In this document: positions 53,130 to 64,000 of the stretch, one piece after another
How positions within the stretch are numbered: position 1 is the stretch's first letter
Layout of the letters: the number at the start of each line of letters is the position of its first letter
Assembly (NCBI GenBank): GCA_034521495.1
Contig: JAXHMK010000004.1
Coordinates: 372,001 to 436,000 of the forward strand
From: Balneolaceae bacterium
Lineage (GTDB): Bacteria; Bacteroidota; Rhodothermia; Balneolales; Balneolaceae
Direction: 5' to 3'
DNA length: 64,000 nt
Translations under genes and position numbers: made by a program
The notes under the pieces: model-generated
What the model was told of the DNA's origin: nothing
Database searches by the model: none
Seen by the model: the letters and a program-made list of their open reading frames with translations, nothing else

Positions 53130-53274
53130 ACAGGTTTTCCTTACATACATCCCATCCCGATAAAGGGCTTCGGTTGATCCCGGAGCCCTTATTTTTTATT
53201 TGAAATTGTATTGACTTCGTACTCATAAGGTCTTTATATTTCAGTCTGTCAAAAAATTGACATATTGATTTATT

Positions 53275-53374
53275 GGTCCGGTAGTTCAGCTGGTTATCCG
53301 TCGGCTGACGGATCCCTTCGGGGGAACGCCTGTCCCGACGGCTCGGGAAGGTCACGAGTTCGATGACCGGATGA
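53275..53374 (+). pseudogene. tRNA-Asp-like relic 1, with an insertion in the D-arm
   Basis: Begins GGTCCGGTAGTTCAGCTGG like the tRNA at 53,501. An insert of about 27 bases containing TCCGTCGGCTGACGGA splits the D-loop. The anticodon arm is replaced by the hairpin CCCGA-CGGC-TCGGG. T-arm-like GGTCA/TGACC and an acceptor-like CCGGAT end remain. No usable anticodon. Confidence 0.65.
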
Positions 53375-53401
53375 TTTTTGAGAGAAGATATTTGACATAT
53401 T

Positions 53402-53474
53402 GGTCCGGTAGTTCAGCTGGTTAGAACGCCTGTCCCGACGGCTCGGGAAGGTCACGAGTTCGATGACCGGATGA
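53402..53474 (+). pseudogene. tRNA-Asp-like relic 2
   Basis: 73 bases. Acceptor 5' half, D-arm (GTTC/GAAC) and T-arm (GGTCA/TGACC) are present. The anticodon arm is the hairpin CCCGA-CGGC-TCGGG, so it cannot decode. Preceded by the same TTGACATATT spacer that precedes the intact tRNA. Confidence 0.65.
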
Positions 53475-53500
53475 TTTTTGAGAGAAGAAGTTGACATATT

Positions 53501-53574
53501 GGTCCGGTAGTTCAGTTGGTTAGAACGCCTGCCTGTCACGCAGGAGGTCGAGGGTTCGAGTCCCTTCCGGATCG
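53501..53574 (+). tRNA. tRNA-Asp (GTC)
   Basis: 74 bases without encoded CCA. Acceptor GGTCCGG pairs with CCGGATC (one G-T). D-arm GTTC/GAAC, anticodon arm CCTGC-CTGTCAC-GCAGG with anticodon GTC, variable AGGTC, T-arm GAGGG-TTCGAGT-CCCTT. Discriminator G. Third member of a tandem array. A terminator follows. Confidence 0.93.
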
Positions 53575-53579
53575 CTTTG

Positions 53580-53614
53580 AAGGTTGCTCAATGTAAAATT
53601 GGGCAGCCTTTTTT
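53580..53614 (+). terminator. rho-independent terminator of the tRNA transcript
   Basis: Stem AAGGTTGCTCAA / TTGGGCAGCCTT with a short loop, followed by T residues. Confidence 0.85.
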
Positions 53615-53631
53615 CATTTAAAGAGGGTTAA

Positions 53632-53904
53632 ATGCACTATCTGTACATTTTATACAGCAAAGAGATCGATCAATATTACACGGGCCAAACAAAGAACGTG
53701 GAAAAGAGAGTTAGAAAGCATAATAAAGGTCATTCTGTTGCAACGAAACGTGGAGTTCCCTGGAAATTAAAGAAAGCAGTAGAGTTTGAAACCAAAACTG
53801 AAGCTATACAAGCTGAGAACTGGATTAAGAAAATGAAAAGTAGAAGGATAATTGAACAAGTTATTGGTGATGAGATTGATTTAAAAGAAATTATCAATGG
53901 GTAG
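53632..53904 (+). CDS. GIY-YIG nuclease-family protein
   Basis: 90 residues, a single GIY-YIG domain of the small UPF0213/URI type. It begins MHYLYILYSKEIDQYYTGQT (the GIY and YIG motifs read YIL and YTG), then Arg in RVRKHNKGHSVATKRGVPW and the Glu in KTEAIQAENWIKKMKS. Such proteins bind and may nick DNA. Its stop codon TAG and last codons lie in a copy of the tRNA-Asp sequence, and 33-bp copies of the tRNA 3' end lie on both sides (53,546-53,578 and 53,932-53,964). Confidence 0.85.
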   Translation: MHYLYILYSKEIDQYYTGQTKNVEKRVRKHNKGHSVATKRGVPWKLKKAVEFETKTEAIQAENWIKKMKSRRIIEQVIGDEIDLKEIING

Positions 53905-53964
53905 AACGCCTGTCCCCGAGGCCGTCGGGAAGGTCGAGGGTTCGAGTCCCTTCCGGATTGCTTT
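53902..53964 (+). repeat. tRNA-Asp 3'-half fragment (attachment-site-like direct repeat)
   Basis: Starts inside the GIY-YIG stop codon with TAGAACGCCTGTCCCCGA and ends GAGTCCCTTCCGGATTGCTTT. The last 33 bases match the 3' end of tRNA-Asp at 53,546-53,578 with one mismatch. It lacks the 5' half, so it is not a tRNA. It marks an integration or duplication boundary. Confidence 0.75.
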
Positions 53965-54335
53965 CCGTAAAGCCTTGTGATGCATATATTTATAGCGTTA
54001 CAAGACTTTTTATTTCTGTATATTTTCTCTCCCATCTCATTCGGTTACAAGGTGGTTACAAGGCAATTGTAATTGACCCGCCCATTTAGAGGCAAATTTT
54101 CAAAGCGCTTTATTTGTGCTAATCTCCCAATCGAAGAGGCCCTAGAGCTATCTTTTTTGAAATTGCAGCATTCGTTCAGAAGAATGAAAATTCGTTTCGA
54201 CATTCCTTAAAGAATTTATAAAAGGTTGTTGGGAAAGCTGGCTATTCTTTATGATTCAGATCCCTGAACGCATTACGAATGGTCAGCAATGTTCATGCTG
54301 ATCAATTCATTCATTCGTAACTCAACAATCCAACC
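53965..54335. other. gap between the tRNA fragment and hsdM
   Basis: No gene. Two closely spaced GGTTACAAGG words (54,043 and 54,053) follow the tRNA fragment, in the way arm-type sites follow an attachment core. No integrase is visible. The hsdM promoter is presumably near 54,250-54,330. Confidence 0.4.
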
Positions 54336-55814
54336 ATGCTCACAGGCGAACTACGAAACAAAGTCGATAAAATCTGGGAAACGCTTCTGGACGGCGGGGA
54401 TTTCCAATCCGTTAACGGTCATCGAGCAGCTGACCTACCTGCTGTTCATCAAAGGGCTGGATGACCAGCAACTGCGGGAGGAGAAGAAAGCCGAACGAAC
54501 CGGGGAACCGATTGAAAATCCGACGTTCGGGCCGGACGATGAACACCTCCGCTGGCACAACCTGAAACAACTGGACCCGGAGACTCTGTTTGAACGAATA
54601 CGCGATGAGGTGTTTCCTTTCATCAAAGAGCTGGGCGGGAAGAACGGCAGCACGTTTCGGAAGCATATGGAAGATGCCATGTTCCTGTTTCCGAAGCCGT
54701 CAACCCTGGCGCGGGTGGTGGAGCTGCTGGACCAGATGGAGTTGCGGAACCGCGACACCAAAGGAGATATGTACGAATATATGCTTTCCAAGCTGAGTGT
54801 GGCGGGACAGAACGGGCAGTTCCGAACGCCGCGGCATATCATCAATATGATGGTGGAGCTGATGCAGCCCAAACCGCTGGAGGATGTGGCTGACCTGGCT
54901 TGCGGTACGGCCGGATTTTTGGTGGCTGTTGGTGAGTATATGCGAAACAACCACGCGAAAGCGATGGTGGATGACAAAGCTCGAAAACATTTCCAAACCG
55001 AGATGTTTACCGGCTACGATTTTGACCACTCCATGCTTCGCATCGGGAATATGAATATGGTGATGCACGGTTTTGACGGGGCCACGATTGATTACAAGGA
55101 TTCCCTCTCCAGCGAAAGTGGAGAATTGCGCGAGCAGTTTGATTTAGTCCTTGCCAATCCGCCGTTTAAGGGAAGCCTCGATTATGACAGCGTGGCCAGC
55201 GACCTGCTGCAAACGGTAAAGACCAAGAAAACCGAACTGCTGTTCATTGCGCTGTTTTTGCGGGCGCTGAAAGTGGGCGGACGCGCAGCCGTGGTGGTGC
55301 CGGACGGCGTTCTGTTCGGAAGCTCCAAAGCGCACAGGGAGATCCGGCGCATTTTGGTGGAAGAGCAGCAGCTCAACGCGGTGATCTCCATGCCGAGCGG
55401 TGTGTTTAAACCGTATGCCGGAGTGAGCACGGCGGTGATTATCTTCACCAAAACCAATTCGGGCGGCACGGAAAACGTCTGGTTTTACGATATGAAAGCC
55501 GACGGCTACTCGCTGGATGACAAGCGCGACAAGATTGAGGATAACGACATTCCCGACATCATTGAACGCTACCACAACCTGGTACGAGGAAGCCGAGCCG
55601 CAAGCGAACCGACAAAAGCTTCCTGGTACCCAAAGAGGAGATTGTAAACGAGAAGTACGACCTCTCCATTAACCGCTACAAAGAGATTGAATACGAAGAG
55701 GTGGAGTACGACTCTCCCAAAACCATTATTAACGGAAAAGAGGGTCAGCCGGGACTGCGGCAGCTTGCTGAAGAGCGACTTCGAATTCTGGATGAGTTGG
55801 AGGGGATGGTTTGA
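54336..55814 (+). pseudogene. hsdM: type I restriction-modification methyltransferase subunit, frameshifted
   Basis: N6-adenine DNA methylase. From the ATG at 54,336 (MLTGELRNKVDKIWETLLDG) one extra G in the run 54,396-54,399 shifts the frame; ISNPLTVIEQLTYLLFIKGL continues. Motif I ADLACGTAGFLVAVGEYM and catalytic LVLANPPFKGSLD (Asn-Pro-Pro-Phe) are intact. Extra bases near 55,582 and 55,598 shift it again; [20 protein letters not shown] then runs to 55,814. Repaired length is about 490, the family norm. Three single-base insertions in one gene look more like sequencing error than decay. Confidence 0.85.
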
Positions 55815-55829
55815 GAGAAGTTTCACTAA

Positions 55830-56978
55830 CCTGAAATATGCAGAGAATGGGAAGTCGGTAAAACACCATCACGAAAAGATCGAATACTATTAGATGGCAG
55901 TATACCTTGTAGCTAAATGCAGGCTGATCTGAATAACGGAGTATTGTTACAGAAGCTGAAGACTATATTACTGAAAAAAGACTTAGAGATCTATTCAGCA
56001 AAGTAAATTGCACAGTAAAGGTTACTTTATTGGTTGCAATGTACGGAGCAACTGCTGGAAAAGTAGGTTTGCTATGAATTTGATAGGTTCAATTTGAACC
56101 AGGTCGATCATGCTTTATAAGACCAGACGGAAAGAGTCTGATGTCAAGTATTTATACTATTATCTTTATGTGAAGAATTTCAGAGACTAGTTGATAAGAC
56201 GTGAAGGTAGTGCAGGACAACCAAACGTATAGTCACAACGATTCTAAAAAGTTTAGACAATTCCCCTCCCAGCTCTCGACGAACAAAAAGCCATCGTTGC
56301 GAAGCTGGACCGGGCGCAAGCGGCTAATCGACATCGATAAAGAGATATTGGCCAAATACGACGAACTGATCCAAAGCGTGTTTTTGGAGATGTTTGGGGA
56401 TCCGGTTACGAGTCCGAAGGGTGGGTAAACTTCCATTCAAAAAAATTGCAGAAATTGATAAGGAGTCATTTGATCCTACAGATTTTGAAGGAAGTGTGAA
56501 GTATGTTGGATTAAATAGCATTGTCGAAAATTCAGGTAAAATAATAGATGTAGAAACGATTACAGAAGGTGATGTTAAGAGTAATAAATACAAATTCTCA
56601 CCTGAACATATTTTGTATGGGGAAATTGCGTCCCTATTTGAACAAAGTAGCCTTTCCTGATTTTCATGGAGTATGCAGGTACTGACATTTTGCCCATGCA
56701 AAGCGGAGGAAGGAATTTCAACAAAGACATTTATTGGGTATCTATTAAAAACTAAGGAGTTTGTAAATTATGCTGATAAAAATGCTTCAGGAGCTAATCT
56801 TCCAGAATTAAGTCCTAAAATGATAAAGAGGTTTGAAGCAGTTCGTCCACCATTGGACTTACAGAAGCAGTTTGATGAATTTGTGGGGAGAGTTAATTCA
56901 GAGAAGCAAAGAACAGTGAATTCTTCAAAAAAATCAGAAGCGTTGTTTTTGTCGTTAGTGCAGGAGGCGTTTGGGTAA
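55830..56978 (+). pseudogene. hsdS: type I specificity subunit, multiply frameshifted
   Basis: Names the DNA target for hsdM and hsdR. Recognisable pieces in changing frames: EWEVGKTPSRKDR, VTEAEDYITEKRLRDL, LLVAMYGATAGKVGLL (end of target domain 1), PALDEQKAIVAKLDRAQ (conserved helix region), KEILAKYDELIQSVFLEMFG, FKKIAEIDKESFDPTDFEG (target domain 2), KDIYW and NASGANLPELSPKMIKRFEA to QEAFG and TAA. At least eight one-base breaks; where I can repair them they are extra bases. If real, the system has lost its specificity. Confidence 0.75.
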
Positions 56979-56982
56979 TAAC

Positions 56983-57742
56983 ATGGTATTCGAAAAGCCG
57001 GAAATATTCTACAAAGTTTTTCCCTATAAATACTGGCTCTATAAAGCTGAGGTGCTTTATAAAATGATTGAGGGCGATAGTCTGGAATATCATGATGGAG
57101 ACGGTAACCTTGAAGCTTTAGGTGGGAGTGAAAAGGAGTTTGTGCTGATGTTGAAGTATGAACTTCATTTCACTTATTATCATCAGGCAGAGGCTTTGTT
57201 TGAGCTGATTTTTGCTCTTGAAAATGTTGTGAGTGATAGCAAGTATATCTGGCTTGAAATGAGCCAATATAAGTCCGGGGACATGCGTCGGTTCGCAGAA
57301 AAAATTAAACGGCTTGCAAAAGGGAGCGATGAGTTACGAGGTAAAAATAAACTTGACGGACGGGCGAGATATTTCATTCTATGAATGGCTGATCTTCGAT
57401 ACCTTTGCACCTAAAATTGATAAGAGTGAGGAACAGGTTAAATTATCTACAGAAAAGGCAGATGAGATTATTCAATTTGCTGCCGAAGATCTGGCAGATA
57501 AAAAGGAGTACAATGCATTTAAACATGGAATGAGAATTCTGCATCTTTTTGACAATTTTAGCATAAAGGATAAAGAGAAGAACAAGTTTGATTTTAAGTT
57601 CGATCTGAAAAATAGTTTTACATATGTGAACTACCCAAAAGACAAGCAAAGAAGTGACGGTAAAGCAGGTGATGTTCAGGCTGTAACTGAAGGATACAAT
57701 CCGAAACAGGATCTTTTGAAAATAAAGCTCATCACATACTAA
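56983..57742 (+). pseudogene. hypothetical accessory protein of the hsd locus, frameshifted
   Basis: First frame from ATG 56,983: MVFEKPEIFYKVFPYKYWLY, LKYELHFTYYHQAEALFELI, MRRFAEKIKRLAKG. One extra base near 57,326 moves the frame to AMSYEVKINLTDGRDISFYE, WLIFDTFAPKIDKSEEQVKL and a stop at 57,742. The joined product is about 252 residues, soluble, with no family I know. It starts five bases after hsdS, so it is probably co-expressed with it. It shares no motif with known anti-restriction or methylase partners. Confidence 0.5.
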
Positions 57743-57900
57743 TGAGTGGAATAATCGAGATCAGAAAAATGAGATTTTTTGGAAATGGCAGGTTTATAGA
57801 ATTCGAGGAATTTGACATAATTAAAAAGCTGAATGAGCTAAGACCTCAAACAGAGCATATTACCTACACACTTCATTCAAAATCTGAAAATGATGATTGA
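57742..57900 (+). CDS. small ORF, 52 aa, translationally coupled
   Basis: ATG overlaps the previous stop (TAATG). Sequence starts MSGIIEIRKMRFFGNGRFIE and ends TLHSKSENDD; no known domain. The coupling and codon use similar to its neighbour support a real gene. Confidence 0.4.
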   Translation: MSGIIEIRKMRFFGNGRFIEFEEFDIIKKLNELRPQTEHITYTLHSKSENDD

Positions 57901-57908
57901 TTTGAAGG

Positions 57909-57957
57909 TAAAATCAGAAGTGCTAATTTAGTCATTGTTGCAGGAGGGGTTTAGGTG
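57909..57957 (+). pseudogene. relic of an hsdS 3' end
   Basis: 48 bases align to the hsdS 3' end (56,928-56,975) with about 77% identity. The frame reads KSEVLI-stop-SLLQEGFR beside KSEALFLSLVQEAFG of hsdS. It marks an older end of an hsdS gene, with the two accessory ORFs between. Confidence 0.55.
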
Positions 57958-57987
57958 CGCTATTTCAATTAAAAATTTCAAATTATC

Positions 57988-58632
57988 ATGAGTAGAGCTC
58001 CAAGAACACTTGATCTATCGGATGATGAGGTAAAAGTTGCACAAGAAGTGTTTCAAAAATTTAACCAATCAAACTTAGAAGCGAAAAGATTATTCGATTT
58101 ATTCAAAGAATGGCAGACATTAAAAACTCGATCACTTAAAAGGTTTGTGCTGTCTTTATCCTTTCTATTGACGATTTCATGGTTGATTAATGTTGATATC
58201 ACGGATATAAAACCTTTGGGGATAAACGTTTCAGGGGCGGATGAAACTCTGTTTCTTATTTCGTTGCTTATAATTCACGTGGTAACATTTATTTATTATC
58301 GAGTTCAAAGGTCAATTGATCTAAATGTTAATGAAGCTGAAATAAGTTTATTTGAAGAAGAATTAAGTCAATTTATAGAACTATCGGACTTCATTGACGA
58401 AATCATAAAAGAAGGTAGAGCGAAATCACTTAGAGATTTAATGAATGATGTACATGGTAGTATTAGACTTTCAGGGAGAATGCCAAAAGTACAGGATGTT
58501 TATAACGCAGTTATATTCTTCAAAAATAGACTTAGGCAAGAACAGGCTAAAAAGAAATGGACTGAGAAAATTGAAACTATCTCAATTTACGCTTTGTCAA
58601 TTGCTGACATATCGATCATAATATCATTTTGA
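57988..58632 (+). CDS. hypothetical two-helix membrane protein
   Basis: 214 residues. Membrane helices at about 51-69 (RFVLSLSFLLTISWLINVD) and 88-104 (LFLISLLIIHVVTFIYY). Mostly helical and charged on both sides, with MPKVQDVYNAVIFFKNRLRQ near the end. No family recognised. Lies in the hsd island after the relic. Confidence 0.6.
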   Translation: MSRAPRTLDLSDDEVKVAQEVFQKFNQSNLEAKRLFDLFKEWQTLKTRSLKRFVLSLSFLLTISWLINVDITDIKPLGINVSGADETLFLISLLIIHVVTFIYYRVQRSIDLNVNEAEISLFEEELSQFIELSDFIDEIIKEGRAKSLRDLMNDVHGSIRLSGRMPKVQDVYNAVIFFKNRLRQEQAKKKWTEKIETISIYALSIADISIIISF

Positions 58633-58796
58633 ATAGATGAGTTCACTTAAAGATAAAGAGAGTAGAAGAAAGCGAGGCCAGAGACAAACTCGCCAAGTGT
58701 TCGCCGCGAATGGTGCCAGGGGGAGTTCGGCTGGGCGGGCGGTGAAGGGTATGGCGCTACTTCGTGGCCGGATGCCCGCCCGTTTCCACCATTGCC

Positions 58797-58926
58797 CTGT
58801 CATCTCGACCGAGAGCGCAAGCGGAGTGGAGAGATCTCCCTTTGGAAGGCAATGAGTCTGAACAGGGAGATCTCTCGACTTCGTCCCGCCAGAAAGGCAC
58901 TGTCGGGACTTCGCTCGAGATGACAG
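58797..58926. repeat. 130-bp element with perfect 12-bp terminal inverted repeats
   Basis: Begins CTGTCATCTCGA and ends TCGAGATGACAG. Interior pairs GGAGAGATCTCCC with GGGAGATCTCTC. GC-rich hairpin arms with GCCCGCC on either side (58,732-58,782 and 59,013-59,061) and a second, degraded copy, CTGTCATTCCGAGCGAGC, begins at 59,081. Together they fill 58,633-59,238, which holds no gene. Confidence 0.65.
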
Positions 58927-59238
58927 TGCGTTGCTTTTTCATGGGCGGCGTATCAGGTTTGGTGGCTTGCGGGGTTTTGTGCGACGCCGCCAAGAGAGTA
59001 AATTCCCATTACGGCGGGCGATGGGTAACTTTGATCTGCATTGGAATTTGATGCCCGCCGCTTTTTCCTACACGTTCCCTGTCATTCCGAGCGAGCGGAG
59101 CGAGTCGAATCTCCCTGAAGAAGGCTGTGAATCGAACAAGGAGATCCCTCGATTTCGACCAACAGACAATAGATAGTATGTGTAATACGTGTAAAATTAT
59201 TTTCGTTATATTCAAATAAGCCAAAACAAACTTCTGTT

Positions 59239-59930
59239 ATGACCACTGATTTCGCAGCCATAAAACCACAATTCAGGAAAAGGGATCTATTCCATCCCGG
59301 ACGCCGCGGCTATTTTAAATATGCCGATGGGGTAAAGTCGCGGCGGTGGATAAAAAAATACTGGGAATTGGAATTTTTACAAGACGTTGAAGACGGATAT
59401 ACCTGGGGTGAAAGCCGGGAAAAAGCTTTTTATTTTCTAACGCTTATCGAAATAATAGCCGTCGACTCCTTTCGGGAGATTGGAGTAAGCTTTCCAAAAA
59501 TTAAGTTGGCACACGCTAAACTTTCTGAGACGCTGGAAACCAAATATCCATTTGCCCACGCCGAATTAATGACCGACGGCAAGCGCATTTTCTTCACTGA
59601 ATTGTTAGATACTTCATTATCAGAAGTGGACGAAAAACAACAGTTATCATTTAACAAACTGGTGGCTCCCTACTCCGCAAAAAAATCGACTTCCAGGATA
59701 AATCTCATCTTGCTGAACGCTTCTGGCCGCTGGGCAAAGATCATCAAATCGTGGTCGATCCGCATCACAGCTTTGGTCAGCCGGTTATCAAAGGGACAAA
59801 TACTACAGTTGAAACCATTTACAGTATGCTGAATGCCGGTGAATCACCGGAGTTCATCGCAACGGTGTACGAAATTGATCAAAAAGAAGTAGAAGACGTC
59901 CGTTTGTTTATGAAGCGAATGGCTGCATGA
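59239..59930 (+). pseudogene. DUF433-domain antitoxin with long N-terminal region, frameshifted
   Basis: N-terminal part (59,239 on) reads MTTDFAAIKPQFRKRDLFHP, RRWIKKYWELEFLQDVEDGY, then IEIIAVDSFREIGVSFPKIK, which resembles a MerR-like DNA-binding region. At an A-run near 59,686 the frame shifts; a missing A is the simplest repair. The second frame, IVVDPHHSFGQPVIKGTNTT, VETIYSMLNAGESPEFIATV, YEIDQKEVEDV, is DUF433, the antitoxin half of DUF433/DUF5615 pairs. Ends ATGA over the next start. Repaired length about 230. Confidence 0.7.
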
Positions 59931-60232
59931 AATTCTACTTTGATGAGAATATCACTCCTCAAATTGCAAAAGCCCTGGCTATTCTCCAGGAACCAAGGCC
60001 GGTAAATGTAGAATATTTACTATCAAAGACGCTTTTGGGCCAGGGAACTCCCGATGAAGAGTGGATACCCAAAGTTGCGGAGGAAGATGGCGTTGTGATT
60101 ACTCAGGATTTCAATATCCAACGAACCAGGCATCAAAGAGAACTTTATCGGCAGTATGGCCTTGGTGTTGTTTTCTTAAAACCTCCCAAAAAGAGCCGTT
60201 TTGGTTATTGGGATATTGTTAACAAGCTCTGA
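59927..60232 (+). CDS. DUF5615-type PIN-like toxin
   Basis: 101 residues. MKFYFDENITPQIAKALAIL has the first acidic residues of a PIN-like fold; EDGVVITQDFNIQRTRHQRE holds the next Asp; YGLGVVFLKPPKKSRFGYWD closes. This family pairs with DUF433 antitoxins and is predicted to cleave RNA. It overlaps its antitoxin by four bases. Confidence 0.75.
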   Translation: MKFYFDENITPQIAKALAILQEPRPVNVEYLLSKTLLGQGTPDEEWIPKVAEEDGVVITQDFNIQRTRHQRELYRQYGLGVVFLKPPKKSRFGYWDIVNKL

Positions 60233-60441
60233 AGCTTGGCCGGAGATCAAAAAGATTGCCAAAAGAGAGAAAAAGCCGTTTGCTTACGTTATAAGACCAA
60301 GATCTAAAAGTTGGAAGCATTGTAGGTTATCTGTCGTGTAAAGAAAGTTACATTAATTTGGTATGTCCTTCTTTTATGCAAAGAAATTTGGAATTTTTTT
60401 ACATATACTGTCTGATATGTAAAAATATAAGCTATTTTTTT

Positions 60442-61527
60442 ATGTCAGATGAACCGAAAGAGTGGGAATGGAGTCCGCTTCCACCTGAAATAGAGTTGGA
60501 AACACCCGAGGTGCTCAAGAAAGCCCTGGAAGCTCAGCGGTATTTGTCGGAGCTAAAAGGCATTTCTCAAACCATTCCCAATCAGGGCATTTTGTTAAAC
60601 ACGTTGCCTGTCCGGGAAGCCAAAGATTCCTCTGAAATCGAAAATATTGTTACCACCAGCGATGCTCTTTATAAAGCGGATGTAGAAAAGGAGAAGAAAA
60701 TTGACCAGACTACCAAAGAGGTTCAACGATATGCCTTTGCGCTGCATGAAGGATATAGCCGGGTGTTAAAAGATGGCCTGATTACAATCAAGGATATTCT
60801 TGCCATTCAGGAGCGTTTGGAGGATAACGATGCCGGCCTGCGTTCTCTTCCGGGAACGACGTTAGCCAATCCTTCAACAGGTGAAATTGTATTCAAGCCG
60901 CCACAGCACAAAGACATTATAATCGATGCCCTGAAAAACCTGGAAACCTATATCAATGACGATTCAATATCGAACGTACATCCGCTTATAAAAATGGCGG
61001 TTATTCATTTTCAGTTTGAGAGTATCCATCCATTTTATGATGGAAACGGCAGGACGGGCCGTATCATCAATATGCTGTACCTGGTTCAAAAAAACCTGTT
61101 AAACATTCCTGTTCTCTACCTGAGTCGATATATCGTTCAAACAAAACCGGATTATTATGAGTTATTGCAAAAAGTCCGAACAGATCAGGATTGGGAAAGC
61201 TGGATTTTGTATATGCTTGAAGGGGTGGCCCAAACCTCAAAGGGAACCATCGAGGATATCATCAATATCCGGGAGCAGATGATGCAGGCCAAGCATCAAA
61301 TTCGAAAGCAGTTTTCATTTTACAGCCAGGATCTGATCAACCACATTTTCAGGCATCCCTATACAAAGATCAATCACCTCAAAGAGGATTTAAGGGTCAG
61401 TCGACCAACGGCAACCAAATATTTGGATGAACTCTCAGATGCCGGTTTTTTAGATAAGGTTAAACAAGGAAGAGACAATTATTATATTAACAGTAAGCTA
61501 TTGGTAGTGTTAACGGGGAAAAAGTAG
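60442..61527 (+). CDS. Fic family protein (AMP transferase type, self-inhibited)
   Basis: 361 residues from ATG 60,442 (MSDEPKEWEWSPLPPEIELE); the 28 residues before it are rejected because they hold no conserved segment. The Fic motif HPFYDGNGRTGR (His196) is complete. The N-terminal inhibitory helix has the SxxxEN motif as SSEIEN (63-68), so activity is self-restrained. A C-terminal winged helix (LKEDLRVSRPTATKYLDELS) suggests DNA binding. Such proteins modify target proteins with AMP. It sits 6 bases before hsdR, inside the restriction locus. Confidence 0.9.
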   Translation: MSDEPKEWEWSPLPPEIELETPEVLKKALEAQRYLSELKGISQTIPNQGILLNTLPVREAKDSSEIENIVTTSDALYKADVEKEKKIDQTTKEVQRYAFALHEGYSRVLKDGLITIKDILAIQERLEDNDAGLRSLPGTTLANPSTGEIVFKPPQHKDIIIDALKNLETYINDDSISNVHPLIKMAVIHFQFESIHPFYDGNGRTGRIINMLYLVQKNLLNIPVLYLSRYIVQTKPDYYELLQKVRTDQDWESWILYMLEGVAQTSKGTIEDIINIREQMMQAKHQIRKQFSFYSQDLINHIFRHPYTKINHLKEDLRVSRPTATKYLDELSDAGFLDKVKQGRDNYYINSKLLVVLTGKK

Positions 61528-61533
61528 AGACGC

Positions 61534-64000
61534 ATGTCAAATTTCAAATTTCTTGATAAAGATTGGCCGGAGTTTTCGGGAGACGCAAAAGCAGTTGAGC
61601 GTCTTGTTACTTTTGATCCGCGCGGAGCATGCGGCCGGGCCAGGCATCTTATTGAACAGGTGGTTCTCTGGATGTATGAACATGATGAAGATTTGACGCT
61701 TCCCTTCGATACCAGCCTGTACAATATCACCGATGATATCACTTTCAAGAAAATTGTAGGCTACACGGTTTACAACAAAATTAATGTGATTCGGAAGAGC
61801 GGTAACCTTGCACTGCATGAAAAGAAACGAATCACAGAAGAGGATGCGCTGCGCATTTGCAAGGAAGTTTTTCATGTGATGTACTGGTTATACCGGACCT
61901 ACACCACAGACGATCAACCAAAGCCGGAACTTAAATTTCAGGCAGATCTGGTTCCAAGGATTGATGATCAGCCGAAAATATCTCACGACGATCTGGAAGC
62001 TCTGAAAAAGGAGATGGAGGAGGAGGCTGACAAACTTCGGGAGCTTCAACAGTCCCTCAAAGATAAAGATGAAAAGCTTGAGCAGCGCAATCGGGAGATC
62101 AAACAGATGCGGCTTCAAACCCGCAAGTTCGCAGATAATCACGATTATAATGAGGCCGAAACCAGGGAGCTTCTGATTGATGTGATGCTTCGGGAATCCG
62201 GTTGGGATCCGGCGAAAAGAGACGTTCGGGAGTACAAAGTGGAAGGCATGCCAAACGATTCGGGAATTGGGTACGTGGACTATGTGCTGTGGAATGACGA
62301 TGGCAAACCACTGGCATTGGTGGAAGCGAAACGAACGACACGAAATTATGAGGAAGGCCAACACCAGGCAAAGCTTTATGCGAATTGTTTGGAGAAGCGA
62401 TTTGGTGTTCGTCCCATCATATTCTTGTCGAATGGGTATGAGATCTGGATCTGGGATGACGGTGAATATCCGCCGAGAAAAATTTTAGGTTTTTATACCA
62501 AAGACAGTCTTCAAACACTGTTCTTTCAAAAGAAGAACAAAGAGCCTCTGCATAAAGCCGATATTAACCATGATATTACAGAACGTTATTATCAGATTGG
62601 AGCCATTCGGCGGGTAGGTGAGCGATTCCAGGAAGGTCACCGGCGCGCACTGTTAGTGATGGCTACCGGTACCGGAAAAACACGAACATCTATTTCCATT
62701 TCGAATATGTTGCTTCAGAACAGGTGGGCGAAGCGTATTCTATTCCTGGCCGATCGGAATGCGTTGGTCAGGCAGGCGTACAGAGCGTATGCAAACCATC
62801 TTCCGTCAGTTCCGATTGTTAATCTTGTTGAAGAGAAAGACGATACGGCAGCTAAAGTAGTATTTTCGACCTATCCGACTATGTTAAATCAAATTGAGAA
62901 TCTGGAAGAAGGCCAGCGAAAATTTGATCCGGGATACTTTGATCTTGTCATTATTGACGAAGCGCACCGCAGTGTGTATAACAAGTACAAAGCTATCTTT
63001 CACTATTTCGATTCGCTGCTGCTTGGTTTGACGGCTACGCCTAAAGAAGATGTGGATCATGATACCTATGAACTTTTTAATACCGAACAGGGGAATCCTA
63101 CTTTTGCATATGGCTTGGAACAAGCTGTAGAGGACAAATATTTACGACCGCCAAAGAAGATCTCTGTTCTTGGTAAATTTCTGACTGAGGGAATCAAGTA
63201 TGATGATCTGTCTGAAGAAGAAAAGAAGCAATACGATGATCTGTTAGCAGACGACGAAACCGGCGCCATTCCGGACCACATTGATGCTTCACAACTCAAT
63301 AAGTGGTTGTTCAATGAGGACACGGTGGAGAAAGTCATTAAGCAGCTCATGGAAGATGGGTTAAAAGTAGAAGGTGGAGATCGGTTGGGAGATACCATCA
63401 TTTTTGCCAAGAACCACAAGCACGCCGTGTTTATTCAACAGGTCTTTGATAAGAACTATCCACACTATGCCGGTCATTTTGCACAGGTCATCGATAATAA
63501 AGTGGAAAAATCACAGGATCTGATCGATAAGTTTTGCTCCTCTGAACATAAAAATCCAACGATTGCCATTTCTGTGGATATGATGGATACGGGGATCGAT
63601 GCGCCCGATGTGGTCAATCTTGTGTTTTTCAAACCGGTTCGTTCGAAGACAAAATTTAACCAGATGATTGGCCGCGGAACTCGCTTTCGTCCTGATCTTT
63701 TTGGTCCTGGTGAAGACAAGAAATATTTCCTGATCTTTGATTACTGTGGCAACTTCGAGTTTTTTGATCAAAATCCGGATGGGTATGAAACTGCTGCTGG
63801 GCCGTCCGTTAGTGCTCAGATTTTTGAAAAAAGGTTATTGCTCACTGCCAAATTAAAGAACGAGCCCTATAAACATGATGAAGAGTTACAGGAGTACAGA
63901 AAAACTTTGCTGGACCAACTTCATCAGCAAGTCTCAAACCTGGAAAGGCAAAGTGTTCAGGTTCGTCCACACCTCAAATTAGTTCACAAACTGGAGGACA
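61534..64000 (+). CDS. hsdR: type I restriction endonuclease subunit R (partial, C-terminus outside window)
   Basis: Open from ATG 61,534 (MSNFKFLDKDWPEFSGDAKA) to the window end, 822 residues seen. An N-terminal DUF4145-like helical region (20-110) and a coiled segment (150-185) come first. The nuclease domain reads GIGYVDYVLWNDDGKPLALVEAKRT (PD-D/ExK). Helicase motifs: ALLVMATGTGKTRTSI (Walker A), LVIIDEAHRS (DEAH), LLGLTATPKED and KFNQMIGRGTRFRPD (motif VI). It translocates and cuts unmethylated DNA with hsdM and hsdS. This subunit is intact in frame, unlike hsdM and hsdS. Confidence 0.95.
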   Translation, partial: MSNFKFLDKDWPEFSGDAKAVERLVTFDPRGACGRARHLIEQVVLWMYEHDEDLTLPFDTSLYNITDDITFKKIVGYTVYNKINVIRKSGNLALHEKKRITEEDALRICKEVFHVMYWLYRTYTTDDQPKPELKFQADLVPRIDDQPKISHDDLEALKKEMEEEADKLRELQQSLKDKDEKLEQRNREIKQMRLQTRKFADNHDYNEAETRELLIDVMLRESGWDPAKRDVREYKVEGMPNDSGIGYVDYVLWNDDGKPLALVEAKRTTRNYEEGQHQAKLYANCLEKRFGVRPIIFLSNGYEIWIWDDGEYPPRKILGFYTKDSLQTLFFQKKNKEPLHKADINHDITERYYQIGAIRRVGERFQEGHRRALLVMATGTGKTRTSISISNMLLQNRWAKRILFLADRNALVRQAYRAYANHLPSVPIVNLVEEKDDTAAKVVFSTYPTMLNQIENLEEGQRKFDPGYFDLVIIDEAHRSVYNKYKAIFHYFDSLLLGLTATPKEDVDHDTYELFNTEQGNPTFAYGLEQAVEDKYLRPPKKISVLGKFLTEGIKYDDLSEEEKKQYDDLLADDETGAIPDHIDASQLNKWLFNEDTVEKVIKQLMEDGLKVEGGDRLGDTIIFAKNHKHAVFIQQVFDKNYPHYAGHFAQVIDNKVEKSQDLIDKFCSSEHKNPTIAISVDMMDTGIDAPDVVNLVFFKPVRSKTKFNQMIGRGTRFRPDLFGPGEDKKYFLIFDYCGNFEFFDQNPDGYETAAGPSVSAQIFEKRLLLTAKLKNEPYKHDEELQEYRKTLLDQLHQQVSNLERQSVQVRPHLKLVHKLED

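Follow-up and report, generated by a model that had tools for sequence, protein, structure and literature searches.

The locus described here raises the question of why a very small nuclease gene should lie between two copies of the 3' end of a tRNA gene, and whether such an arrangement constitutes a mobile unit in its own right. It was encountered in a 64,000-nucleotide stretch of DNA (hereafter, the window) from a Balneolaceae genome that is near Rhodohalobacter and comprises 4.57 Mb with 38 tRNAs. The unit, situated beside an intact tRNA, combines a single GIY-YIG gene with a partial tRNA copy that bears a hairpin. As argued below, the locus is probably one copy of a widespread mobile unit of ~360 bases, a homing element of the free-standing GIY-YIG type, which inserts into tRNA genes and leaves one intact copy.

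All of the features of the locus lie on the forward strand. An intact tRNA-Asp(GTC) gene (53501-53575), whose sequence recurs unchanged in several related nuclease-free loci, is followed by a terminator-like stem-loop and T-run (53579..53614) of the GCTGCTC...GAGCAGC type, as seen after the tRNA in other filled (nuclease-bearing) loci, and then by the nuclease gene (53632..53904). The latter encodes 90 amino acids, forming a lone catalytic domain with the predicted active-site residues present, and is the sole protein-coding content of the unit, with no integrase gene inside. Its end runs into a downstream tRNA-Asp relic (53900..53964) that extends from the D-loop onward, possesses an intact (almost perfect) 3' half, and carries the palindrome CCCGAGGCCGTCGGG in the anticodon-arm position (53915-53929); the TAG stop of the nuclease (53902-53904) is the D-loop TAG of this relic. 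Upstream of the intact tRNA are two further relics, relic 1 (53275-53374) and relic 2 (53402-53474), each with a good 5' half and a decayed 3' half. These have in common an identical 65-mer that includes TCCCGACGGCTCGGGA, which replaces the anticodon arm in both, and relic 1 also contains the palindrome TCCGTCGGCTGACGGA within its D-loop. A putative tRNA-Asp promoter, TTGACTTCGTA...TATATTT (53211..53241), whose function is inferred, precedes the relic array, and a similar block is found ahead of tRNA-Asp at many related gpx-tRNA-Asp loci.

The direct repeat that brackets the nuclease gene spans 34 nucleotides (53545-53578 and 53931-53964; 97% identity, one mismatch). The 26-base tRNA-Asp 3' end occurs at these two sites only in the window (shuffles expect 0.00), and its 20-base core is confined to the same two sites in the entire 4.57-Mb genome. 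A preliminary description, made from the sequence alone, had recognized the repeat with its single mismatch, the 90-residue GIY-YIG gene within it (PF01541, E 2.8e-15), the stop codon supplied by the second tRNA fragment, the two upstream tRNA-Asp-like units with a common hairpin in place of the anticodon arm, and the similar hairpin of the third fragment, and all of these are borne out. Beyond the unit, type I restriction-modification genes (54289-63999) begin ~330 bases past the downstream relic; they comprise a methyltransferase and a restriction subunit that runs past the window's end, with a Fic-like ORF between the two. In the intervening stretch, GTTACAAGGTGGTTACAAGG repeats at about 54045-54070 resemble island arm sites.

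Association with tRNAs is a general property of such small genes. The source genome has eight GIY-YIG matches, five small and stand-alone and three longer. No tRNA is near the longer frames (UvrC of 619 aa, and others of 374 and 286 aa), and all five small genes lie 53-76 bases downstream of a same-strand tRNA (Asp, Asn, Met, Pro, and Val), for which the chance expectation is of the order of 1e-18 (about 4e-18), given 38 tRNAs in 4.57 Mb. UvrC and longer GIY-YIG genes, employed as controls, were near a tRNA in 0/8 cases. Within the genus (28 genomes), BLAST identified a tRNA or tRNA copy flanking 63 of 99 small ORFs; some of the unlinked ORFs carry relics decayed beyond BLAST detection, and of the 23 unlinked proteins placed in the tree, 19 group in a clade of their own. 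For the phylum, 195 of the 296 Bacteroidota genomes drawn contained a match. When 18 new loci were picked by protein score alone, a tRNA or tRNA relic adjoined the gene in every one, with a tRNA call beside the gene in 16 (including L253, where the call overlaps the ORF end), a tRNA end at the contig edge in one (L245), and a relic only in one (L252). A contig scan with the Asp-clade alignment identified named relatives such as Rhodohalobacter, Christiangramia, Leeuwenhoekiella, Flavobacterium, Maribacter, Aequorivita, and Parapedobacter, and the gap between the tRNA end and the ORF start has a median of 53 bases (quartiles 47 and 66). The suggestion that small GIY-YIG genes and tRNA ends pair as a recurrent mobile unit is therefore supported in the source genome, the genus, and the phylum sample alike, and the lack of any such link, which had been named in advance as a refutation, was not encountered.

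Linkage to rRNA was considered for the units without a tRNA and rejected, as none was detected by Rfam. A sister clade of small GIY-YIG genes lacks tRNAs altogether (L009, L011, L015, L044, L066, L070, L077, L079, L081, L083-L085, and L089); its members have a conserved TGTAAGG...TTCATACnnnTATGA-like leader and sit among GTCATCCTGA/TCTCGAC-type repeats. Related GIY-YIG genes are also apparently inserted within a XerD-type recombinase gene (L017, L021, and L092), the insertion in L021 being flanked by the terminal inverted repeats ACCCCGTTAGAAATTT...AAATTTCTAACGGGGT, and others lie within a RAYT-like gene (L043) and an epimerase-like gene (L094).

The tRNA-linked proteins fall into clades that follow the isotype of the adjacent tRNA, and 12 isotypes are represented. 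In the genus tree (91 proteins), 18 changes of isotype label were required relative to 61.0 after shuffling, and in the phylum tree (123 proteins), 21 changes (minimum 11) relative to 82.7; no shuffle was as low in either case. The Phe group displays two changes in 30 rows, and the Gly group a single change in 12. Likewise, where tRNA matches were found on both sides of an ORF, isotype and anticodon agreed in 25 of 26 pairs, the sole exception pairing Ser-TGA with Ser-CGA. That the clades track isotype suggests that specificity is borne by the protein. Vertical inheritance of orthologous loci may explain part of this coherence.

Downstream of the ORF, 85 of 106 loci repeat part of the neighbouring tRNA, in many cases along with its terminator, as judged by a score above that of 20 shuffles for each locus. 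In 77 of these 85 loci, the 95 nucleotides past the stop contained a hairpin whose stem was five or longer, versus 41% of shuffles, some of the hairpins being terminators. The relic palindromes usually start with TC and end with GA, and their stems vary between lineages (TCCCGA..TCGGGA, TCCGCC..GGCGGA, TCATGGAATTCCATGA, and TCCGTTAGCTAAGGA). The palindrome occupies the anticodon-arm position in, for example, Met, Asp, Asn, and Gly relics, and the T-loop in Phe and in some Asn and Asp relics. Upstream relics accompany 22 of 102 units and are thus optional; in several loci (L024, L168, L189, and L246), the upstream and downstream relics share the same or nearly the same palindrome. At some Ser, Pro, and Arg loci (L051, L056, L062, L071, L248, and L253), the order is mirrored, with a 5'-half relic and its palindrome, then the ORF, and then the intact tRNA. 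The preliminary description had envisaged a unit that targets or copies tRNA 3' ends. The association with tRNAs stands; the restriction to 3' ends does not, because the mirrored units duplicate the 5' half.

It had also been proposed that the relic hairpin be sought elsewhere in the genome. The TCCCGA-n-TCGGGA palindrome is indeed dispersed there (37 sites, versus four for a reversed control), so the idea that it is a mark exclusive to the unit was rejected. Some dispersed copies of the palindrome lie within longer repeats with identical flanks (L267, L270, and L278). Relic-like sequences have been found without a nuclease as well. In the rRNA operons of the source genome (L132 and L133), the 16S-23S spacer contains tRNA-Ile and tRNA-Ala but no nuclease gene, and each of these tRNAs is preceded by a relic whose anticodon arm contains a palindrome. 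A tRNA-Pro(cgg) of the same genome (L154) is followed by five copies of its 3' end, also with no nuclease ORF; three are nearly identical and 135 bases apart, and most are fused to GAAGCAGTGCTTC-type hairpins. Finally, ARAGORN calls such as Tyr(ata), Trp(cca), and Arg(ccg) lie at or overlap the ORF end in L186, L189, and L253; those of L189 are tRNA-Asn relics whose palindrome resembles an anticodon arm, which gives rise to spurious tRNA annotations.

A clear example of insertion is seen at the tRNA-Phe locus of Flavobacterium, where 27 of 30 loci are empty and three are filled (one as a tandem double). Relics of tRNA-Phe occur in 3/3 filled and 0/27 empty loci (one-sided Fisher 2.5e-4, ignoring relatedness). 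Comparison of a filled with an empty locus (L304 and L305, respectively) revealed 362 extra bases, zero lost bases, and an identical tRNA, and the insert consists of a GIY-YIG ORF and a tRNA copy only. The unit thus satisfies what is expected of a homing gene, in being present at some, and absent from other, equivalent loci next to its presumed target; it does not satisfy what is expected of an element that contains its own integrase.

Comparison with empty tRNA-Asp loci, as had been proposed at the outset, was only partly informative. At the gpx-tRNA-Asp locus of the window's genus, upstream relics are found in eight nuclease-bearing loci, and the eight loci without a nuclease gene beside the tRNA have none. 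Some of the latter carry other islands, which makes tRNA-Phe the cleaner comparison. In G025 (L303; G025:C1:951400-958700), an island of ~4 kb encoding a 408-aa tyrosine recombinase, along with other genes, separates the intact tRNA-Asp from a displaced tRNA-Asp 3' half with its own nuclease unit; the same tRNA gene is therefore also the target of an integrase. Such islands complicate calling any tRNA-Asp locus of Balneolaceae truly empty. The idea that the native terminator had been displaced downstream at tRNA-Asp was considered and withdrawn, as several nuclease-less loci seem to carry island ends after the tRNA and G025 has its integrase island. A recoded rescue tRNA, as in cleave-and-rescue systems, was rejected for Asp and Phe because the intact tRNA does not differ between filled and empty loci.

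Tandem arrays built of 306-450-base units also occur. For example, L284 possesses one intact tRNA-Asp and five nearly identical 315-base nuclease-relic units, and L283 has 5.3 copies of 450 bases (98%). Among multi-copy or neighbouring loci, a tRNA was present in 18 of the 19 fetched. The arrays multiply the nuclease and the relic, not the intact tRNA. Copies of tRNA-Phe, three or four in tandem and ~95-105 bases apart, were also noted in some Flavobacterium genomes (G378:C24:26006-26403, G373:C1:2883540-2883811, and G371:C76:146005-146426).

By its match to PF01541, the window protein belongs to the GIY-YIG superfamily. The expected catalytic residues, which are predicted as such, are retained in at least 119 of 123 tRNA-linked relatives (Y5 in 119, Y16 in 122, G18 in 120, R26 in 121, H30 in 122, and E62 in 120). 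The nearest solved relatives by sequence are the UPF0213 proteins 1zg2 (E 1e-14) and 1ywl, followed by Slx1. The predicted model (pLDDT 95) shows a GIY-YIG domain on its own, apart from short helices at the C-terminus, and contains no separate DNA-binding domain; Foldseek ranked 1zg2 first, then Slx1 and I-TevI. In sequence, in fold, and as a stand-alone domain of ~80-110 aa, the protein therefore conforms to UPF0213. A tblastn search with the window protein against 50,697 phage records returned no match. Carriage of the units by phages was rejected, as an Asp-type query was unmatched in phage records and viral contigs. As for full-length similarity to SegB-type phage proteins, only a weak PHROG match (E 0.0099) emerged.

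Integrative islands are classically recognized by direct repeats of tRNA 3' ends, and the unit might be a remnant or satellite of one, with a tyrosine recombinase acting in trans at tRNA 3' ends, the repeats as attachment sites, and the nuclease as mere cargo. The G025 island at tRNA-Asp and the type I restriction system directly downstream in the window would be in keeping with this. However, the insert is just 362 bases and lacks an integrase, the nuclease clades themselves track isotype, the palindromes lie inside the tRNA arms of the repeats, mirrored units duplicate the 5' half, and no third copy of the tRNA-Asp 3' end exists in the genome, so we regard an island origin as unlikely, though not negligible. 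A passive process, in which tRNAs are duplicated in tandem, the spare copies decay through dispersed palindromes, and the nuclease merely hitch-hikes, could draw on the nuclease-less relics at the rRNA-operon tRNAs, the five fragments after tRNA-Pro(cgg), and the dispersal of the palindrome. It is rated as highly improbable, given the nuclease beside a tRNA or relic in 18/18 sampled loci, the isotype-tracking clades, and the confinement of tRNA-Phe relics to filled loci; because of this last point, the SINE-like free spread of tRNAs entertained in the preliminary description is not supported.

No greater credence is given to a service to the host, whereby the nuclease would amplify tRNA genes for dosage, such as against tRNA-cutting defences or toxins. 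Tandem arrays are found here as well as with SegB, whose amplification of a tRNA-Tyr unit allows Septu to be evaded (PMC13096335), but the present arrays amplify the nuclease and a disabled relic, as is plain from the single tRNA of L284. An RNA-directed enzyme, guided to the matching tRNA gene by a hairpin-relic transcript at the 3' end of the nuclease mRNA, would make sense of an ORF whose end overlaps a hairpin with flanks identical to the target, of a hairpin that is kept while its stem sequences vary by lineage, and of a protein without an obvious specificity domain. It remains extremely doubtful, as the isotype-tracking clades suggest that specificity resides in the protein, the details of the relics are poorly conserved, and we know of no small GIY-YIG enzyme that uses RNA. 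The broader notion that the relic is a working part, steering the enzyme to its own isotype's tRNA gene either as guide RNA or as a structure recognized in the DNA, is also a long shot; if true, the unit would not be an ordinary homing gene but would represent a novel class of minimal, self-targeting mobile elements.

Homing, the preferred explanation, builds on the observed tRNA link, isotype clades, same-isotype palindromic copy, clean insertion, arrays, and conservation of predicted catalytic residues. The nuclease would cut the tRNA gene of one isotype in a copy devoid of the unit, with the break at or close to the anticodon arm or the T-loop. A copy that bears the unit could then serve as template for homologous repair, which would insert the nuclease gene and tRNA sequence, restoring one intact tRNA, and the remaining part of the tRNA would stay behind as a palindrome-marked relic, presumably no longer a target. 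The direct repeats arising from insertion may subsequently allow units to multiply in tandem, or to be lost with a relic remaining. That the enzyme cuts, that the unit homes by recombination, and that the palindrome protects are all inferred, since no cleavage or movement has been observed, and cutting of the tRNA gene by the protein itself is inferred only from the isotype-specific clades. The mirrored arrangement at Ser, Pro, and Arg tRNAs is compatible with a break within the tRNA gene. Against homing, the intact tRNA beside the gene is identical to that of loci without the gene, and the sparing of the adjacent tRNA is therefore not accounted for; low expression behind the terminator is a guess. 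Moreover, the protein lacks a separate DNA-binding domain, and like palindromes occur elsewhere in the genome.

If confirmed, the mobile units carried by the whole phylum Bacteroidota would rank among the smallest autonomous ones known, with each lineage dedicated to a single isotype and able to enter an essential gene without destroying it. The finding would extend the SegB-tRNA link from phages to chromosomes, and would account for many scattered genes annotated as "GIY-YIG nuclease family protein," as well as some relic-caused false tRNA annotations. The many natural pairs of nuclease and presumed target would also open the specificity of a lone GIY-YIG domain, a long-standing question, to direct test.

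In a limited search of the literature, no earlier description was found of a chromosomal, one-domain, relic-bearing unit spanning many isotypes; SegB was the known system that emerged. The portion available to us of an older survey of the GIY-YIG superfamily did not mention a chromosomal tRNA unit (PMC1564403). SegB and related free-standing GIY-YIG homing endonucleases are known from T-even phages (PMC2988022, citing Brok-Volchanskaya 2008). SegB of T6 and other T-even phages cuts inside tRNA genes, its activity is required for tandem amplification of a 718-base tRNA-Tyr/segB unit that results in Septu evasion, and the 3' end of segB shares microhomology with the 5' end of the tRNA (PMC13096335). 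The present units likewise place a free-standing GIY-YIG gene beside tRNA genes, occur in tandem arrays, and have an ORF end that overlaps tRNA sequence. Unlike SegB, a phage gene that acts in phage crosses, they encode a 90-aa lone domain on bacterial chromosomes, span 12 isotypes with hairpin-bearing tRNA relics, and have no close phage homologue that we could find.

P4-type tyrosine-recombinase islands share the tRNA insertion site, the displaced 3' fragment, and the maintenance of an intact tRNA, whereas the units are ~360 bases, lack an integrase, bear a palindrome inside the displaced fragment, and exist in 5'-half forms too. UPF0213 proteins (1zg2 and 1ywl), among which we presume E. 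coli YhbQ to belong by name and size, are the closest solved relatives by sequence and fold and have the same size and domain; the proteins of the units differ in forming isotype-specific clades with tRNA relics, and to our knowledge, ordinary UPF0213 proteins have no tRNA linkage. Finally, REP/RAYT and other palindromic repeat systems similarly tie short palindromes to a single nuclease-type gene, but they involve the HUH enzyme family and no tRNA linkage, whereas here the palindromes reside within tRNA relics.
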